A DNA stretch of 64,000 nt from an uncultured Ilumatobacter sp. (GCA_905182555.1 CAJJBX010000015.1:1-64000), one strand, 5' to 3'. Shown: positions 55,077 to 64,000, counted from the first letter of the stretch. Notes: a model not told the origin generated them from the sequence alone. Numbers and translations: made by a program.

Positions 55077-55246
55077 ATCTGTAAGCGTTCGGTACCACTA
55101 AGAGCTCGTCGGCAAGGAACTGTCAAAAGTAACAGTATTGTTTCAGCGGCGAGACAACTCAGGTGGTCCCTTCGAGCAGGCGTCATGCGCTCAGGACGAT
55201 GAGTCCGCCGAGCTCGGTGTGACTGGACATCGAAGAAGCGACTGGC

Positions 55247-55258
55247 TATCATTCTCAC
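55247..55258. promoter_or_regulatory. Zur-box-like half site (TATCATTCTCAC) just upstream of the His-rich lipoprotein gene
   Basis: Shares ATCATTCTCA with the znuA upstream element at 59103-59118. Confidence 0.4.
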
Positions 55259-55259
55259 T

Positions 55260-56124
55260 ATGATGACCCTGAAGAACTCCGTCCTCATCCCGTTGGCAGT
55301 CGGAGCGTTGGTGGTGGTGTCGTCGGCCTGTGGCGGAGACGAGGAGGCCGCAGCTGCAGACGTGCCCACGACGGCACCCGACGTCACGCTTGACGCAGTG
55401 GGCGAGCCAGCCGACGAAGCCGACGAGCAGGGCGGCGATGACGATCATGCAGACGACGAAGAACACGACGAACACGACGACGAACACGACGACGAAGAAC
55501 ACGACGAACACGACGACGAACACGACGACGAACACGACGACGAACACGACGACGAACACGACGACGAACACGACGACGAACACGACGACGAACACGACGA
55601 CGAACACGACGACGAACACGACGACGAACACGACGACGAACACGACGACGAACACGACGACGAACACGACGACGAACACGACGACGAACACGACGACGAA
55701 CACGACGACGAACACGACGACGAACACGACGACGAACACGACGACGAACACGACGACGAACACGACGACGAACACGACGACGAACACGACGACGAACACG
55801 ACGACGAACACGACGACGACACGACGAACACGACGAACACGACGAACACGACGAACACGACGACACGACGTGAACAACGAGGCTGGATGCTCGCTCGCCG
55901 GCCCGGTGGCCACCGAGGTGGATCGCGACGGCAGTCACTCCGAGATCACCGTGTCGTGGGTGTTCGAATGTGAGAACGCTGATGACGTCAGCCAGGTGGA
56001 CGCTGCTGGGCTCTTTGCCGAGTTCCCGAACTTCGAAGACGTCGACGTCCAATGGGTCTCGGAGTCGGAGCAATCGGCAGCCGAGCTCTCTCCGTCGGCC
56101 ACCTCATTTATGCTGTTGCAGTGA
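55260..56124 (+). pseudogene. zrgA: ZrgA/DUF2796-like zinc-uptake lipoprotein with EHDD repeat linker; frame broken by two 1-nt indels near 55820 and 55862
   Basis: N-part lipobox VVVSSACGGDEE and (EHDD)n in ORF 55260..55973; C-part HDVNNEAGCSLAGPVATEVDRDGSHSEITVSWVFECENADDVSQVDAAGLFAEFPNFEDVDVQWVSESEQSAAEL in frame of ORF 55330..56124, whose stop overlaps the next gene start (GTGA). Confidence 0.7.
55506..55818. repeat. 12-bp tandem repeat array (GACGACGAACAC), roughly 26 near-perfect units, followed by 9-bp variant units
   Basis: Read directly; encodes (EHDD)n in the lipoprotein frame. Confidence 0.97.
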
Positions 56125-56834
56125 TCCAACACGGGAGCGAAGTCGTCGGCCTCGAACGGGTGCGATTCCGCTGGCCGGGACAGACAACGGACACCGTCTC
56201 GATTGACGAGCTGCATCTCGCCGCGGGTGAGCATCTGTTTGTGCGCGGCTCCAGCGGCAGCGGCAAGACCACGCTGCTGAACCTGCTCTGCGGCATACAC
56301 ACACCGACGAGTGGAACGGTGCGCCTACTCGGAACAGACCTCGCAGGTCTCAAGGCGAGTGGTCGTGACCGCTTTCGAGCTGACCATGTCGGCGTCGTCT
56401 TCCAACAATTCAATCTGTTGCCGTATCTCTCAACGCTGGAGAACGTGACGCTGTCGTGCTCGTTCTCGGGGCGCAAGAAGCAGCGCGCCACCGAGGGCGC
56501 CGATCTCAAGGAGACCGCGCGCCGTTTGCTGAGTGACCTCAACCTTGATCCGGAGTTGCATGGCGCACCGGTCAGCAAGCTCAGCGTCGGACAGCAGCAG
56601 CGTGTGGCCGTGGCGAGAGCGCTCATCGGTGGGCCCGAGATCCTGATCGCCGATGAACCGACGTCTGCGCTCGATGCCGACAACCGGGACCGATTTATGG
56701 ACCTGCTGTTCCGTGAGACGAAGGCTCGAGGATGCACACTTATCTTCGTGAGTCACGACCCGCAGCTGGCTGAGCGATTTGAGCACACCATTGGACTCGA
56801 CCCAGTCCCTGCTGGGTCGCGGAGCGCATCGTGA
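56121..56834 (+). CDS. ABC transporter ATP-binding protein (MacB/LolD-type; ZrgB-like)
   Basis: LFVRGSSGSGKTTLLNLLCGIHTPTSGTVRLLGTDLAGL; VVFQQFNLLPYLSTLENV; KLSVGQQQRVAVARALIGGPEILIADEPTSALDADN. Confidence 0.92.
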   Translation: MIQHGSEVVGLERVRFRWPGQTTDTVSIDELHLAAGEHLFVRGSSGSGKTTLLNLLCGIHTPTSGTVRLLGTDLAGLKASGRDRFRADHVGVVFQQFNLLPYLSTLENVTLSCSFSGRKKQRATEGADLKETARRLLSDLNLDPELHGAPVSKLSVGQQQRVAVARALIGGPEILIADEPTSALDADNRDRFMDLLFRETKARGCTLIFVSHDPQLAERFEHTIGLDPVPAGSRSAS

Positions 56835-58087
56835 CCTTGTTGTTGATCGCGTTGAAGAGCGCTCGCTTCCGTCGCACGAGCATCGTGTTGACGGTGCTCG
56901 CCATCGCGATCAGCGCGACACTCCTGCTCGGCGTCGACAAGATCCGCAAGGAGTCGCGGGCGAGCTTTTTCAACACCGTCGCAGGGACAGACCTGATCGT
57001 CGGGGCGCGGAGCTCGCCAACGAACCTGCTGTTGTACAGCGTTTTCCGGATCGGCAACGCCACAAACAACGTGAGCTGGGAGACCTACGAATCGATCGCG
57101 GAACAAGATGAAGTCGCCTGGACGATTCCCATCGCACTGGGTGACTCACATCGAGGCTTCCGGGTGATGGGGACCTCGACGGACTACTTCGAGTTCTATC
57201 GATACGGGAACAAGCAGCAGTTGAGCCTCGATGCCGGAGAGCGCTTCGAGGGCGTGTACGACGCTGTCCTCGGGGCAGACGTAGCGCGCGACCTCGGCTA
57301 CAAAGTCGGCAATGAGATCGTCATCTCGCACGGGTTGACCTCAGCGGACTTCGCCGATCACGACGACAAGCCGTTCACAGTCGTCGGGATCTTCGACCGC
57401 ACGGGCACGCCGGTCGATCGCACCGTTCACGTGGACCTCGCGGGCATTGAGGCGATTCACGTTGACTTCCGAGACGGCAGCCGCTCGGGTGTGCCGCTTG
57501 ACGCGGAGCAAGCGCTGCAGTTCGACCTGACACCGACATCGATCACCGCATTTATGGTCGGGCTCGAGAACCGAGCGCAGACGTTCCAGGTCCAGCGTGA
57601 GATCAATGAATTCCGGGCGGAGCCGATGACGGCAATCCTGCCCGGCGCCACGCTGTCAGAGTTCTGGAGAACGATTGCGCCCGTTGAACAGGTCCTGTTC
57701 GTGATCTCTGGCTTCGTGCTGTTTGCAGGACTGCTCGGCATGCTGACCACGATCTTGTCGACCCTCAACGAGAGACGCCGTGAAATCGCAGTACTGCGCG
57801 CTGTCGGCGCTCGAGGACGACACGTGGTGATGTTGATCGTGCTCGAGACGCTGCTGGTCGTCACGGCTGGTTGCGCACTCGGAGTTGGCATGCTCTACGC
57901 CCTGATGTCGTTAGCGCGGCCCACCGTGGCTCGGCGCTTCGGCGTCGACCTGGCCCTGACCTGGCTGGACTCAACACAACTGGGTATCCTTGGTTTGGTG
58001 ATAGGCGCCGCAGTCGTGGTTGCACTGATTCCCGGATTTATCGCGTATCGCCGTTCGATCCAAGACGGCCTAGCCCTCAAGGTGTAG
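56831..58087 (+). CDS. FtsX/MacB-type ABC permease (ZrgC-like)
   Basis: ALKSARFRRTSIVLTVLAIAISATLLLGVDKIRKESRASFFNTVAGTDLIVGARSSP; C-terminal LNERRREIAVLRAVGARGRHVVMLIVLETLLVV; GTGA overlap with ATPase gene. Confidence 0.92.
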   Translation: MTLLLIALKSARFRRTSIVLTVLAIAISATLLLGVDKIRKESRASFFNTVAGTDLIVGARSSPTNLLLYSVFRIGNATNNVSWETYESIAEQDEVAWTIPIALGDSHRGFRVMGTSTDYFEFYRYGNKQQLSLDAGERFEGVYDAVLGADVARDLGYKVGNEIVISHGLTSADFADHDDKPFTVVGIFDRTGTPVDRTVHVDLAGIEAIHVDFRDGSRSGVPLDAEQALQFDLTPTSITAFMVGLENRAQTFQVQREINEFRAEPMTAILPGATLSEFWRTIAPVEQVLFVISGFVLFAGLLGMLTTILSTLNERRREIAVLRAVGARGRHVVMLIVLETLLVVTAGCALGVGMLYALMSLARPTVARRFGVDLALTWLDSTQLGILGLVIGAAVVVALIPGFIAYRRSIQDGLALKV

Positions 58088-58094
58088 CTCAAGT

Positions 58095-58916
58095 ATGACG
58101 GTTCAATCTTCTGTGCGCAGAGGTTCGAAACTGATGACCTTGGCGAGCTCGCTCTGCGTGCTGTCGTTTACCGCGACAGCGTGCGGATCCCCGGACGGGG
58201 CCGGGGCCGGGGTTGATGCCGGGGTTGTTGCCGGGGTTGATGCCGGGGCCGGGGCCGGGGTCGATGTCGGGGCCGGCGTCGACATTGGTGCGAGGGCCGA
58301 TGATGCAACGGAGATCGTGGCCGAGGTCGCCGCGCCGCCGACGCACGCAACCAGCGACAGCCCCGGGGCGCTCCAGTACGGAGATCCAATCACCGACCTT
58401 CTGTCTTCGCCGGCAGCGGGAGCCGAGGCGTCGGCCCCGACCGTGGCGGGCTTTCGTGCCGTCGAGTGGAACGACCTTATTGCGCCGGGCCTTTCAGGCG
58501 AGGAGATCTACGAGCGATACCGAGAGCAAATCGAAGCAGTCAAGCCCGGCTCACCCAAGCTCGACGAGATCTACGCAGAAATGAACGACGACTACGACGC
58601 CGCCTCGGTCAACCCAGCTCTCAACAGCCAGAAGATTCAACTCGCCGGCTTCGTCGCCCCGCTGACCTACGACGGGGAAAAAATTACAGAGTTTCTGCTC
58701 GTGCCGTATTTCGGAGCATGCATTCATGTTCCGCCTCCGCCGCTGAACCAGGTCGTGGTGATCACGCTCGCTGAGGGCGACAGCCTCTCGCTCGAAGATT
58801 CGTGGGGAGCGATTTGGGTGGCCGGCACGCTGGACGCCGGGGTGACCGACACGGACCTTGCCACCGCGGGTTACTCGATCGCCGGTCCGGTCTTCGGCAC
58901 GTACACGACGCAATAG
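58095..58916 (+). CDS. DUF3299 lipoprotein (ZrgD-like) with Gly/Ala/Val/Asp repeat linker
   Basis: Lipobox TATAC; AGAGVDAGVVAGVDAGAGAGVDVGAGVDIGA; IQLAGFVAPLTYDGEKITEFLLVPYFGACIHVPPPPLNQVVVI is characteristic DUF3299 core. Confidence 0.85.
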   Translation: MTVQSSVRRGSKLMTLASSLCVLSFTATACGSPDGAGAGVDAGVVAGVDAGAGAGVDVGAGVDIGARADDATEIVAEVAAPPTHATSDSPGALQYGDPITDLLSSPAAGAEASAPTVAGFRAVEWNDLIAPGLSGEEIYERYREQIEAVKPGSPKLDEIYAEMNDDYDAASVNPALNSQKIQLAGFVAPLTYDGEKITEFLLVPYFGACIHVPPPPLNQVVVITLAEGDSLSLEDSWGAIWVAGTLDAGVTDTDLATAGYSIAGPVFGTYTTQ

Positions 58917-59102
58917 GTCAGCTGCTCGATACCGGCACCGCCGGCGTTTCTCTGAGAGTGGGCCGGGGAAGTGAAGACGCGCATTTTGGCTGCAGAAGCG
59001 GCGACGCACGTGGCGGTCTCTACGCGGTGAGCACAGTCTTGGGTCGTCACGGACTTAGGTAATCAAGTTGGGATTGATTCTCGGTACCGATATTCTCTCC
59101 AC

Positions 59103-59118
59103 TTAGAATCATTCTCAA
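59103..59118. promoter_or_regulatory. Zur-box-like 7-1-7 palindrome TTAGAAT-C-ATTCTCA(A) upstream of znuA
   Basis: One mismatch from a perfect TGAGAAT-N-ATTCTCA palindrome; 20 bp before znuA ATG. Confidence 0.6.
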
Positions 59119-59137
59119 CACAAGGAGGCATCACACG

Positions 59138-60382
59138 ATGCGCACGCACCGAACCACACCAGCAATTGCCATTGTTGCCGCTCTCAGTCTGGTGCTCGCT
59201 GCCTGCGGATCCGACGACGGCAGCGAAGCCGGCCAGCAACAGGGGGCGCCTGTCACCAATGGTGCTGCCGGGCTTGCGGACGGAGTGGCGCTGCCGACGA
59301 TCGTGGTCACCACCAATATCCTCGGAGACGTTGTGCAGGCCGTCGTGGGTGATGCGGCAGAGGTCATCACCATCATGCCGGTTGGTGCCGATCCGCATGA
59401 CTTTCAGGCATCGGCGCAAGAGGTCGTCGCCATGAATGCGGCCGATGCATTGATCGTGAACGGTGCGGACTTCGAAGAGGGCCTGCTGGATGTGATCGAC
59501 GCAGCCGGTGACGAAGGAGTTCCGACGTTTAATGCAATCGATGCGGTCGACACCATCGAGTTCGGCGAGGGTGGCCACGAGGGGCACTCTGATGATGAGG
59601 AGCACTCTGATGATGAGGAGCACTCTGATGATGAGGAGCACTCTGATGATGAGGAGCACTCTGATGATGAGGAGCACTCTGATGATGAGGAGCACTCTGA
59701 TGATGAGGAGCACTCTGATGATGAGGAGCACTCTGATGATGAGGAGCACTCTGATGATGAGGAGCACTCTGATGATGAGGAGCACTCTGATGATGAGGAG
59801 CACTCTGATGACGAGCATGACGAGCATGACGAGCATGACGATCACTCGGGTGCCGATCCTCACTTCTTCACCGACCCGATGCGGATGGCCGCAGCAGTCG
59901 AGGCGTTGGTCGCGTTCCTGCAGGACGAGGTGACCTTCGCGGACCCGGCAGCCGTGAGCGCGTCAGCAGCTGCCTATGTTGCTGAACTCGTTGCCCTCGA
60001 TGGCGAGGTCGCGGCGCTGGTGGCGTCGATGCTCGAAGAACGACGCGTCCTCGTCACGAACCATGAGGTCTTCGGCTACTTCGCCGATCGATACGGGTTC
60101 GAAGTTGTCGGCGCGGTTATTCCGAGCGGCAGCACCACCGATGGCGTGAGCGCCGGGGAACTCGCCGAGCTTGCGGAGAAGATCGTTGAAGAAGGGGTAC
60201 CGGCGATCTTTGCCGACGCTTCCTCATCCGATGATCTGATCGAGGCGCTGGCGGCTGAAGTCGGCTACGTCATCGTCGTCGAGCTGTACTCCGAATCGCT
60301 CGGCGAACCCGGCGGCGATGGCGCAACCTACGTGGAGATGATTCGAACAAACGCAACAAGGATGAGTTCGGCACTCGCCTGA
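59138..60382 (+). CDS. znuA: zinc ABC transporter substrate-binding lipoprotein
   Basis: Lipobox VLAACGSDD; VVTTNILGDVVQAVVGDAAEVITIMPVGADPHDFQASAQEV; His-rich loop (HSDDEE)12; GADPHFFTDPMRM; VVGAVIPSGSTTDGVSAGELAELAEKI. Confidence 0.93.
   Translation: MRTHRTTPAIAIVAALSLVLAACGSDDGSEAGQQQGAPVTNGAAGLADGVALPTIVVTTNILGDVVQAVVGDAAEVITIMPVGADPHDFQASAQEVVAMNAADALIVNGADFEEGLLDVIDAAGDEGVPTFNAIDAVDTIEFGEGGHEGHSDDEEHSDDEEHSDDEEHSDDEEHSDDEEHSDDEEHSDDEEHSDDEEHSDDEEHSDDEEHSDDEEHSDDEEHSDDEHDEHDEHDDHSGADPHFFTDPMRMAAAVEALVAFLQDEVTFADPAAVSASAAAYVAELVALDGEVAALVASMLEERRVLVTNHEVFGYFADRYGFEVVGAVIPSGSTTDGVSAGELAELAEKIVEEGVPAIFADASSSDDLIEALAAEVGYVIVVELYSESLGEPGGDGATYVEMIRTNATRMSSALA
59585..59806. repeat. 18-bp tandem repeat (CACTCTGATGATGAGGAG)x12 plus partial, inside znuA
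   Basis: Twelve nucleotide-identical units read directly. Confidence 0.97.
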
Positions 60383-60428
60383 TCAAGCGAGCCGCCCGGA
60401 CCCGACGTGCTCGTCGGGTCCGGGCGGG

Positions 60429-60869
60429 TCAGGCGCAGTCGGCGCAGCTGCCGAGCAGGTCGAGGCGATGGCTGTCGATTGTGAACTTGGCCGAGCGGCT
60501 GACCTTCGCGAACGCCATGTTCAAAGCGCCCTCTGTATCAGCGGTGAGTTCGAAGTCGCTGACCGATCCGCAGATGGTACAGATCAGGTGATGGTGATGG
60601 TGGTCGGTGAGTCTTTCTGCGAGTTCGAAGCGTGCGTGGTCGTCGTGGGTAACGATGCGCACGACAGCACCGACTTCTTCGAGGATCGCAAGGTTCCGGT
60701 ACACGCTCGACTGTGCGAGTCCGGTGTCCACTTCCAAGATGTCCAGGATCGTTACCGGGCCCGCAGAGGTGTGTAGAACCGAGATGACTTGCCGTCGGCT
60801 CGTCGTGTAGCGGTGTTCGCCGACGCGCAGCAGCGAAGCTACGTCGTCATGGAGGAGATCAGCGGTCAT
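60429..60869 (-). CDS. zur: Fur family regulator, Zur-like
   Basis: HRYTTSRRQVISVLHTSAGPVTILDILEVDTGLAQSSVYRNLAILEEVGAVVRIV; DHHHHHLICTICGSVSDFEL; C-terminal CADCA; sits inside znu locus. Confidence 0.9.
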   Translation of the reverse strand: MTADLLHDDVASLLRVGEHRYTTSRRQVISVLHTSAGPVTILDILEVDTGLAQSSVYRNLAILEEVGAVVRIVTHDDHARFELAERLTDHHHHHLICTICGSVSDFELTADTEGALNMAFAKVSRSAKFTIDSHRLDLLGSCADCA

Positions 60870-60919
60870 CGGCTTGACCCTAGCGGTTCTGGGAATCAGT
60901 GAGAAAAGGTTCGAGCGGC

Positions 60920-61654
60920 TCAGTGGTGATGGGGGTCGTCGAGGACCATCGTGTCGCCGATTCGGACGAACTTCCCACCGAAAGCCGTGCGCAGATGTTC
61001 CTCAGTGAAGACCTCGTCCGGTGTGCCAAACGCGATGAATGAGGTGGCGAGCAGGAGGACCAGTTCACAGCGCCGAGCATCGTCGAAATTGTGGGTCGTG
61101 GTCATCACGGTCCTCCCGGCTGCATGCTCGTCGTCGAGCACGGACAGGATGACTGATCGTGAGCGAACGTCGAGCCCGGTGAGCGGTTCATCGAGCAGCA
61201 GGATGTCTGCGTCCTGGGCGAGGCCCTGCGCGACGAATGCTCGTTGGCGCTGGCCACCCGAGAGTTGGTGGATCTGGCGGTGTGCAAGGTCGGCGATCTC
61301 GAGCCGATTCATGGCGGAATCGATGGCAGTTCGGTCGACAGCGCTCGGACGTCGGAAGAGGCCGAGGCCAGGGAATCGCGCCATGGCTATGACGTCACGC
61401 ACTGTGAGCGGAATGCTCTGATCGATGTCGGTCGACTGCAACACGATCGCAGTTGTTGCACCGGCGGTGTCGCATGTGCCCGAGGTCGGATCGATCACGT
61501 CGCCAATCACCTTGAGTAACGACGACTTGCCGGACCCGTTCGGGCCGATGATTGCTACAGACGATCCGATTGGGATCTCCAAGGTCAAGTCGCCGACCGC
61601 ATGAATCGGGCCGTAGTCGACGTGCACATCTTTCAAAGTCACGGCTGCCGGCAC
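60920..61654 (-). CDS. znuC: zinc ABC transporter ATP-binding protein
   Basis: VAIIGPNGSGKSSLLKVIGDVIDPTSG; HQLSGGQRQRAFVAQGLAQDADILLLDEPLTGLD; His-rich C-terminus DDPHHH. Confidence 0.92.
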   Translation of the reverse strand: MPAAVTLKDVHVDYGPIHAVGDLTLEIPIGSSVAIIGPNGSGKSSLLKVIGDVIDPTSGTCDTAGATTAIVLQSTDIDQSIPLTVRDVIAMARFPGLGLFRRPSAVDRTAIDSAMNRLEIADLAHRQIHQLSGGQRQRAFVAQGLAQDADILLLDEPLTGLDVRSRSVILSVLDDEHAAGRTVMTTTHNFDDARRCELVLLLATSFIAFGTPDEVFTEEHLRTAFGGKFVRIGDTMVLDDPHHH

Positions 61655-61667
61655 GCTTTCAACGATA

Positions 61668-61680
61668 TCGAGAATGAGTC
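61668..61680. promoter_or_regulatory. Zur-box-like half site (TCGAGAATGAGTC; complement GACTCATTCTCGA) in znuC/znuB divergent promoter
   Basis: Shares TCATTCTC core with 55247 and 59103 elements. Confidence 0.4.
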
Positions 61681-61712
61681 CGAAAACTGCGGCCGGCCGC
61701 TAGCGTCATCAT

Positions 61713-62558
61713 GTGCAGTTGATCCTGGATGCGTTTGCTCCTGCATTCATGCAGCGTGCGCTCATTGGGGGGCTGTTGGCTGTCGTGGCCACATCATTGG
61801 TGGGAACGTGGGTCGTGTTGCGTGGCCTCTCGTTTCTCGGCGACGCGTTGGCCCACGGTGTCATTCCCGGCATTGCACTCGCAGTGCTCTGGGGGTTCAG
61901 CCCGATCATTGGCGCACTCGTTGCGGCTGCCGTGATGGGTGGGCTCGTCAGCGTCGTGACCAGCCGTTCAGGCGTTCGTGAAGACACGGGTATCGGGCTG
62001 CTCTTCGTCGGCATGTTGTCGCTCGGCATCGTGATTGTGTCGAAGGCACGTTCGTTCACCACCGAGGTGACGGCGCTGCTCTTCGGTGATGTCCTCGGAG
62101 TGACGCGCGACGACATCAATGGTCAGCTGATCGGCGCGTCGATCGTCGTCGTTGCCACCGTGGTGCTCTACCGGCCGTTTCTCGCTCTCACCTTCAACCG
62201 GATGAAGGCCCGGTCGCTCGGCATGCATCCCAGCGCGGCCCATTTCGCACTGATGGTGCTGCTCGCCATCAGCATTGTCGCCAGTTTCCAGGCGGTTGGA
62301 ACGCTGCTCGTGTTCGGCCTGCTCGTTGGCCCGCCGGCCACGGCATCGTTGCTCACCCGACGGGTCCCGCTGATGATGGTTGTTTCGATGCTGTGTGGCG
62401 CGCTCGCCGTCGTCGCCGGGTTGACGATCAGCTTCCACGCCGGGACGGCTGGCGGTGCAACGATGTCCGGGCTCAGCGTCGCACAGTTCTTCGTGGTGCT
62501 GGCCGCAGTCGAGGTAGTAAGCGCTGTTCGAGCGCACCGTCACGCCCGCATCGCCTGA
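61713..62558 (+). CDS. znuB: zinc ABC transporter permease
   Basis: MQRALIGGLLAVVATSLVGTWVVLRGLSFLGDALAHGVIPGIALAVLWGFSPIIGALVAA; LGMHPSAAHFALMVLLAISIVASFQAVGTLLVFGLLVGPPATASLLTRR. Confidence 0.95.
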   Translation: MQLILDAFAPAFMQRALIGGLLAVVATSLVGTWVVLRGLSFLGDALAHGVIPGIALAVLWGFSPIIGALVAAAVMGGLVSVVTSRSGVREDTGIGLLFVGMLSLGIVIVSKARSFTTEVTALLFGDVLGVTRDDINGQLIGASIVVVATVVLYRPFLALTFNRMKARSLGMHPSAAHFALMVLLAISIVASFQAVGTLLVFGLLVGPPATASLLTRRVPLMMVVSMLCGALAVVAGLTISFHAGTAGGATMSGLSVAQFFVVLAAVEVVSAVRAHRHARIA

Positions 62559-62574
62559 CGTCGAAATCAGGGTC

Positions 62575-63219
62575 TCAACCGCAACAGGTGTGTTCCAGGG
62601 AGTCGGCGGCAAACGTCCGCCACGCCATCCATCCGGCGACTCCAGCGATTGCCAGCCCGGCCACCGGGTCGGCCCACCACCAACCGAACGCCGCATTCGC
62701 CGACAATCCAACGAGGAGGGCCGCAGACAGCATGGTGCACACGTTCGTCTGCGCTGCCTCGGCGACAGCGGCTTGCGAGCCGAGGGCGAGCGCGAGCCGC
62801 TTCTTTGCCGCAGCGAGGAGGGGCATAACCACGAGCGAGAGTGATGCGATGACGATGCCGATTGTCGACGCTCCTGGCTTGTGTCGGCCGATGAGGTCTA
62901 GGCATGCCGACACCGACACGAACGCAGCAAGTGCTGCGAAGGAACATGCAATGAGGCGGCGTGCGCGATCGTCGGCTGGGAGTTGACAACCGTCGCGACG
63001 TTCTTGGTGGAGTCGCCACGCTAAAACGAACGCTGCGGAGACTTCGATTCCTGAGTCGAGACCGAACCCAATCAGGCTGGCTGATGAGGCAGCGACGCCC
63101 GCTGCGATAGCGGTGATGCCTTCAACGGCGTTCCACCCGATCGTCAACCGATTGAGCACCGTTGCACGGCGGACGACCTCGTGACGATCTGCGGACTCCG
63201 GCTCGACGATGAGCGTCAT
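62575..63219 (-). CDS. cation transporter, CDF-like (short form)
   Basis: NRLTIGWNAVEGITAIAAGVAASSASLIGFGLDSGIEVSAAFVLAWRLHQE; GWWWADPVAGLAIAGVAGWMAWRTF; C-terminal HTCCG. Confidence 0.82.
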   Translation of the reverse strand: MTLIVEPESADRHEVVRRATVLNRLTIGWNAVEGITAIAAGVAASSASLIGFGLDSGIEVSAAFVLAWRLHQERRDGCQLPADDRARRLIACSFAALAAFVSVSACLDLIGRHKPGASTIGIVIASLSLVVMPLLAAAKKRLALALGSQAAVAEAAQTNVCTMLSAALLVGLSANAAFGWWWADPVAGLAIAGVAGWMAWRTFAADSLEHTCCG

Positions 63220-63596
63220 TGCACGCGCTGATCTGTGTCGGGCTGACCACACGAGGGGAGTGTTGCCGCGATCTCGACCAACATTAAGAGAGCATCGGCG
63301 AAGTGTGTCGATACGAGGTCGTAGTGAAGGTGTCGCCCGGTGCGCGTGGCACTAATCAGGCCACAGCCGCGCAAACATGAGAGATGGTTCGAGAGGTTCG
63401 AACGGGACGTACCGATTTCTTCAGCCAATTCGCTTGGGCGCCGGGTGCCGCCCAACAGGCTCATCAGAATGGAACGCCGAATCGGATCAGCAAGTGCGCG
63501 TCCGACTCGGTCAAGACCATGCGGATTGGTGCCGGCGCCCTGGTCAGCGGGCGGGCTCGATGACGTCCCATCGCGCTGCAGTAATAGTTCAGCCAC
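63216..63596 (-). CDS. ArsR/SmtB family metal sensor, CmtR-like
   Basis: LDRVGRALADPIRRSILMSLLGGTRRPSELAEEIGTSRSNLSNHLSCLRGCGLISATRTGRHLHYDLVSTHFADALLMLVEI; ATGA overlap with transporter gene. Confidence 0.88.
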   Translation of the reverse strand: MAELLLQRDGTSSSPPADQGAGTNPHGLDRVGRALADPIRRSILMSLLGGTRRPSELAEEIGTSRSNLSNHLSCLRGCGLISATRTGRHLHYDLVSTHFADALLMLVEIAATLPSCGQPDTDQRVQ

Positions 63597-63681
63597 GCCT
63601 GAATAGTAGCGGTGGTGGTGCCGTCTCCGCAATCCGTTTGGTGGTGGAGGTTGTGTCGCTGTGGAGGAGCGCAGCGAACGT

Positions 63682-63900
63682 TCAGCCCAGACGTAGCCCG
63701 GCAGCGTGGTCCATGATCGAATCGGGTACCACGATGCCGGGTGTCAGCACGGTGCGCAGGGCTGGGTCGACGCGTGCGGTCACGCCGCTCGTTGCGAAGC
63801 GAATGGTGACCGTTCCGTCGTAGTCGAGCGTGAGCTCGTGGGTTGCCTGTCCGAAGCAGTCGATGACCTGCTCGGTGATCAGGCCACCGAACTCAGCCAC
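63682..63900 (-). CDS. small hypothetical protein
   Basis: 72 aa ORF ([35 protein letters not shown]...) overlapping the end of the bL31 gene by 8 nt. Confidence 0.5.
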
Positions 63901-64000
63901 GATCTCGGCGTCCGTAACGCTTGTTGAACCGTTCGACGCGTCCGGCGGTGTCGATGATGGTCATGCTGCCGGTGTAGAAGGGATGCGTGTGATTCGACAC
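63893..64000 (-). CDS. rpmE: 50S ribosomal protein bL31, partial (C-terminus), zinc-ligand cysteines apparently absent
   Basis: Reverse-strand translation [35 protein letters not shown]; truncated by window end so not in the ORF track. Confidence 0.88.

Follow-up and report, generated by a model that had tools for sequence, protein, structure and literature searches.

A Zrg-type operon with predicted lipid-anchored components in Ilumatobacter, a single-membrane actinobacterium

The 64,000-nucleotide stretch of DNA from an uncultured Ilumatobacter sp. analysed here (GCA_905182555.1 CAJJBX010000015.1:1-64000; hereafter the window) carries on its plus strand a four-gene set, zrgABCD, that we assign to the Zrg / PA4063-PA4066 system already described in other bacteria. 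What is new is its occurrence in a phylum for which the literature we found had not described Zrg, together with a layout adapted to a monoderm cell. The explanation we favour, and hold to be reasonably probable, is that zrgABCD is a horizontally acquired Zrg-type zinc-starvation ATP-binding cassette (ABC) system that has been adapted to a single-membrane actinobacterium and serves Zur-controlled zinc acquisition.

Hidden Markov model matches define the gene order as ZrgA (PF10986, a domain earlier named DUF2796), LolD/MacB-like ATPase, MacB_PCD/FtsX permease and DUF3299 protein (PF11736). These matches, the order itself and the co-occurrence described below bear out an initial annotation that had proposed a zrg/PA4063-PA4066-type order in an actinobacterium. 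Both of the domain searches it had suggested returned scores above the cut-off, with the C-terminal half of PF10986 matched at 55852-56109 (58.6 bits, cut-off 27.4) and PF11736 matched by the 58095-58916 protein (119 bits, Pfam cut-off 22), and Pfam agreed with every domain it had called across the region (PF10986, ABC_tran, MacB_PCD + FtsX, PF11736, ZnuA, FUR, a further ABC_tran, ABC-3, Cation_efflux and HTH_5). The ABC ATPase (56121-56834, +; PF00005) is 74-81% identical to its congeners, and its best NCBIfam models are FtsE, YbbA, LolD and MacB, all scored below their equivalog cut-offs. It is followed by the MacB/FtsX-like permease (56831-58087, +; PF12704 and PF02687), and the GTGA overlaps noted previously at 56121 and 56831 are both present in the sequence. 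The last gene (58095-58916, +) encodes a predicted DUF3299 lipoprotein homologous to ZrgE/PA4066, with a lipobox, the motif VPYFGACIHVPPPP and a profile match to the PA4066 structure (PDB 4hsp, E 6e-19). The window ZrgA fragment, the one ZrgA scored with this model, reached 38.7 bits against a cut-off of 185 for the NCBIfam equivalog NF047873, and we therefore file the locus as a Zrg variant and not as an equivalog.

The window copy of zrgA (55260-56124, +) is broken as assembled. From the ATG at 55260, frame 0 encodes a lipoprotein signal peptide with the lipobox VVVSSAC and leads into a 413-bp tandem array (55452-55864; 34.5 copies of the 12-bp unit GACGACGAACAC) that encodes a His/Asp/Glu-rich (HDDE)n stalk; one base is missing near 55819 and another near 55864, which shifts the PF10986 portion into frame 1. 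The initial annotation had placed DUF2796 at the C-terminus of a 55330 frame, and this domain assignment stands; zrgA is interrupted by these two 1-base slips, however, and the start of the open reading frame (ORF) at GTG 55330 is spurious. A one-piece ZrgA from that GTG was rejected, as its first ~170 residues are a wrong-frame reading of the array. The intact version of Zrg was read from two congeners, G254 (an uncultured Ilumatobacter metagenome-assembled genome by label) and G731, whose full-length ZrgA proteins match PF10986 with about 112 bits. Compared with these, the window protein has no counterpart of the entire N-terminal half of the fold, which begins at the GAHEHG motif and stops just short of VNNEAGC. 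Both congeners have zinc site 1 (HxH, Glu and His), of which the window copy lacks HxH and Glu. With the Vibrio cholerae site-1 ligands being His35, His37, Glu66 and His184 (PMC9820375), three of these four are therefore gone from window ZrgA. The break could stem from a repeat-driven deletion or from assembly collapse, and because ZrgA is damaged or its array misassembled, the window Zrg system is either non-functional or mis-sequenced. The frames of zrgB, zrgC and the DUF3299 gene are open.

Published ZrgA proteins represent five proteobacterial groups (PMC7731109), and Zrg is very rare in our Actinomycetota samples. DUF3299 was found in 3 of the 11 genomes of the genus and ZrgA in the same three, in keeping with the co-occurrence that the initial annotation had expected in related genomes. 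At the level of the class, DUF3299 occurred in two of 296 genomes, the sole two with strong ZrgA matches, and in the phylum sample in one of 397, the window genome itself. Weak PF10986 matches in G051, G063, G153, G196 and G008 (20-32 bits, two barely over the cut-off) did not coincide with DUF3299 and were not counted; they probably reflect His/Asp/Glu-rich repeats. No relatives of zrg were found among viral contigs.

The surroundings of the operon differ among the three genomes that carry it. In G254, a phage-type tyrosine integrase and a helix-turn-helix gene lie upstream of zrgA (L010:5387-6915), suggesting a mobile element, and in G731 the neighbours are unrelated genes that include one for a long repeat-rich surface-type protein. 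The znuA-zur-znuC/znuB block, which adjoins zrg in the window, stands without it in G254 and G764, and a znuB match is present in all 11 genus genomes. The single zinc island envisaged previously is thus not conserved, and because the contexts differ and znu recurs alone, we regard zrg and znu as two modules side by side rather than as a demonstrated ancestral island.

The zrg genes appear, from sequence comparison, to have come into Ilumatobacter relatives by gene transfer. Proteobacterial homologues were drawn from plasmid records, with the exception of a chromosome-sized, unannotated Aeromonas record in which the genes were read directly. The gene order is identical in Aeromonas, P. aeruginosa, Phaeobacter and Pseudooceanicola, in the latter two of which a Fur regulator or zinc genes lie next to the operon, and the Ilumatobacter permease shares 46-53% identity with its proteobacterial homologues. 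In the tree, the Ilumatobacter copies from all three genomes fall into a single clade (support 100/100), which groups with the gammaproteobacterial copies at 81/86. Contamination was rejected on the grounds of three genomes, host-like GC content and differing chromosomal contexts. The GC content of zrg (61.5 vs 61.6% for the host) and its GC content at third codon positions match the host, and zrgB and zrgC show high synonymous divergence among the three genomes with dN/dS of about 0.07-0.11, the mark of purifying selection; from these values it follows that transfer was not recent and that the genes have been maintained. A DUF3299 gene from Comamonas was set aside as an orphan copy with no ABC genes nearby.

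Adaptation to the host is most apparent at the membrane. In all three Ilumatobacter genomes a lipobox Cys lies at residue 21-24 of both ZrgA (in the window, read from the frame-0 start) and DUF3299; none of six proteobacterial ZrgA proteins has a lipobox, and no clear one was seen in nine proteobacterial DUF3299 proteins, that of Catenovulum being ambiguous. Both proteins are accordingly predicted to be lipoproteins in Ilumatobacter and soluble in the sampled proteobacteria. The His/Asp/Glu-rich segment of ZrgA lies between lipid anchor and domain in Ilumatobacter, whereas in proteobacteria it is mainly a central loop. A single membrane is an established trait of these cells. In line with that cell plan, no OEP/TolC homologue (PF02321) was detected in any of the five genus genomes scanned, of which three have a completeness of 94% or more, whereas the same model matched in 7 of 14 control genomes. 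Of the parts of a MacA-MacB-TolC exporter, the window thus encodes the MacB-type permease (PF12704, PF02687), while the TolC-type channel was not found in those five genomes, which makes this route unlikely in Ilumatobacter.

The closest described relatives are ZrgABCDE of V. cholerae and V. parahaemolyticus, in which ZrgA, ABC ATPase, MacB-like permease and DUF3299 likewise share one operon, there Zur-linked, and the His-rich ZrgA has an HxH...E...H site. Unlike these, the Ilumatobacter set of four has no counterpart of Vibrio ZrgD (a DUF2607 protein), its ZrgA and DUF3299 are predicted lipoproteins with the His-rich segment on an N-terminal stalk instead of a central loop, and it resides in a single-membrane host with a putative operator of actinobacterial type. 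The four genes of Pseudomonas aeruginosa PA4063-PA4066 have the identical order, and a plasmid-borne permease copy is 52% identical; by contrast, His124 and His126 of PA4063 are not retained in Ilumatobacter, which moreover is without an outer membrane; the reported export role cannot use TolC there.

The putative operator of zrg looks like the host's own actinobacterial-type zinc switch. We searched with the pattern TGAGAATCATTCTCA, taken from the znuA promoter (the seed site), and allowed up to three mismatches; this pattern resembles the 7-1-7 actinobacterial Zur consensus TGAAAATGATTTTCA (PMC2823685). A Zur-box-like palindrome, TGGCTATCATTCTCA, lies just before the zrgA ATG (55243-55257, +; three mismatches), another, TTAGAATCATTCTCA, before znuA (59103-59117, +; one mismatch), a further site upstream of znuA (59069-59083, -; three mismatches) and a fourth by rpmB, beyond the window at 64575. 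About 24 places in the 2.56 Mb genome match the pattern, and the four within 55243-64589, a 9.3-kb stretch, compare with 0.09 expected; without the seed site at znuA, the chance of three sites in this stretch is about 1e-4. Sites equivalent to that at 55243 abut the zrgA start in G254 (two mismatches) and G731 (three mismatches). Because some matches fall inside genes, such as one with two mismatches in an ftsK-like gene on contig C21, single genome-wide matches are weak evidence. Elsewhere, another gene of the Fur family, whose product has an HHHH motif and two CxxC motifs (G000 contig C10:10306; L027:1507; L058 about 6300) has the palindrome TGAGTACCATTCTCA just before its start and adjoins an ABC-3 permease fragment; this locus is possibly a second Zur with a decayed znu locus.

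The permease groups with MacB/Lol/FtsX proteins, and its best PDB profile match is MacB, over the C-terminal transmembrane part alone. In its external domain four histidines (H107, H167, H177 and H210 in window numbering) are invariant across 11 zrg-type permeases; in a Deinococcus relative without an annotated ZrgA or DUF3299 neighbour, H107 is absent and H177 probably so. A zrg-type permease on a Ruegeria conchae plasmid (L023:4992-6395) carries a His-rich insert in the external domain, with an HlyD-like adaptor in place of ZrgA upstream and DUF3299 after it. Together, these observations on the external domain lead us to favour a hand-over of metal to the permease ectodomain. A plasmid of Catenovulum adriaticum (L022:3603-6212) bears an ATPase-permease pair and a divergent DUF3299 gene without ZrgA, with MerC and cytochrome c genes nearby. 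An AlphaFold2 model of the permease built from a two-row alignment was discarded (predicted local distance difference test score of 36).

Taken as zinc acquisition, the system might work as follows. At low zinc, the host's Zur would release the palindrome that lies immediately ahead of the zrgA start, allowing all four genes, the first three of which overlap, to be expressed as one unit. ZrgA, lipid-anchored on a flexible Asp/Glu/His stalk, would capture zinc at the conserved HxH, Glu and His site; the ATP-driven MacB-like pair would move the large external domain, whose four invariant histidines could take zinc and pass it inward, with DUF3299 assisting. By analogy with Vibrio, where genetics points to zinc acquisition via ZrgA (PMC9820375, PMC9817125), import is the most likely direction of Zrg transport, a view disputed for Pseudomonas. 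The boldest form of this proposal, in which an ABC pair of the MacB superfamily receives a metal ion from lipid-anchored ZrgA and imports it through a single membrane, without outer membrane or TolC, we put forward tentatively, as possible and rather more doubtful than not.

Several observations weigh against zinc acquisition by an acquired, Zur-controlled operon. To our knowledge, ion import by MacB-superfamily transporters has no precedent; zrgA is broken in the window genome as assembled; the palindrome at 55243 is imperfect; the gammaproteobacterial placement is supported at just 81/86 in a tree with few proteobacterial rows; and the Pseudomonas homologue has been assigned export of a pyochelin-cobalt complex (PMC11481552). 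The last of these leads to an alternative in which the ABC pair exports a metallophore or metal complex and ZrgA and DUF3299 are accessories. The MacB-type permease, recognized by both domain and PDB profiles, and the HlyD-like adaptor at ZrgA's place in the Ruegeria relative agree with it as do the Pseudomonas genetics; we nevertheless judge it unlikely, given that the five genus genomes yielded no OEP/TolC homologue and that V. cholerae needs zrgA for low-zinc growth in a znuA mutant (PMC9820375).

That same mutant bears on a proposal we find distinctly improbable, namely that Zrg moves no zinc through the membrane and that ATP-driven movement of the ectodomain, outside the cell, strips the metal from ZrgA or DUF3299 and hands it to ZnuA/AztC. 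The invariant ectodomain histidines and the predicted membrane anchoring of both lipoproteins would suit such a role. MacB/Lol/FtsX relatives do work by mechanotransmission. Since V. cholerae zrg sustains growth without znuA, ZnuA is not the sole acceptor. For the window copy alone, one might instead see a decaying, functionless pseudogene cluster next to znu by chance, a view that is compatible with zinc acquisition in the congeners and that we consider improbable, with appreciable weight. The loss of half the zrgA fold with two frameshifts, the patchy distribution in 3 of 11 genomes and the differing contexts in congeners speak for decay; zrgB, zrgC and DUF3299 are, on the other hand, open and constrained, the Zur-like site persists, and near-perfect arrays such as this one of 413 bp are places where assemblies classically collapse.

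The literature is split between zinc import and metal-complex export by Zrg, and in Ilumatobacter, where one membrane suffices, ZrgA and DUF3299 are both predicted to carry lipid anchors and TolC was not found, tripartite efflux is unlikely, which offers a simpler setting in which to settle direction. If its MacB-like pair does import a metal ion across the one membrane, Ilumatobacter would hold a minimal form showing that Zrg imports by a mechanism unlike that of known metal ABC importers. The apparent transfer of the operon across phyla was accompanied by the predicted change of two soluble proteins into lipid-anchored ones and by a putative operator resembling those of the new host.

Downstream of zrg, an initially proposed ZnuABC proved to consist of substrate-binding protein, ATPase and permease genes as described, the three lying nearer to AztABC than to ZnuABC by NCBIfam, each under its equivalog cut-off; this Cluster A-I transporter is unrelated to Zrg. 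The ZnuA/AztC-like zinc-binding lipoprotein (59138-60382, +) matches PF01297 with 199.5 bits and the AztC model with 274 (cut-off 350), the ZnuC/AztA-like ATPase (60920-61654, -) scores 212.8 against 220 and the ZnuB/AztB-like permease (61713-62558, +) 278.1 against 280. Zur, an efflux pair and a C-minus bL31 had also been called, and Pfam and NCBIfam matches back all of them: a Fur-family regulator, likely Zur and znu-linked in congeners (60429-60869, -; PF01475), a cation diffusion facilitator-type efflux protein (62575-63252, -; PF01545, 27.7 bits), an ArsR-family CmtR-like regulator (63216-63632, -; NF047906, 104 against a cut-off of 150) and a type-B bL31 (63893-64000, -, running on to 64147; NF002462, 120 bits vs 86). 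A 72-codon ORF (63682-63900, -) begins before bL31 has ended and has no match in Pfam or NCBIfam. Beyond bL31, outside the window, lie bL33 and bL28, which complete a C-minus ribosomal set bL28-bL33-bL31. Type-B bL31, bL33 and bL28 with a Zur-like site recall the actinobacterial Zur regulons of M. smegmatis and S. coelicolor, in which, unlike here, a zrg operon is not among the members described in the available portions of the sources. Within znuA, an in-frame 18-bp tandem array of 13 copies and a 9-bp array (59579-59841) encode an acidic His-rich loop, (EEHSDD)n in its 18-bp part, from a repeat unlike that of zrgA.

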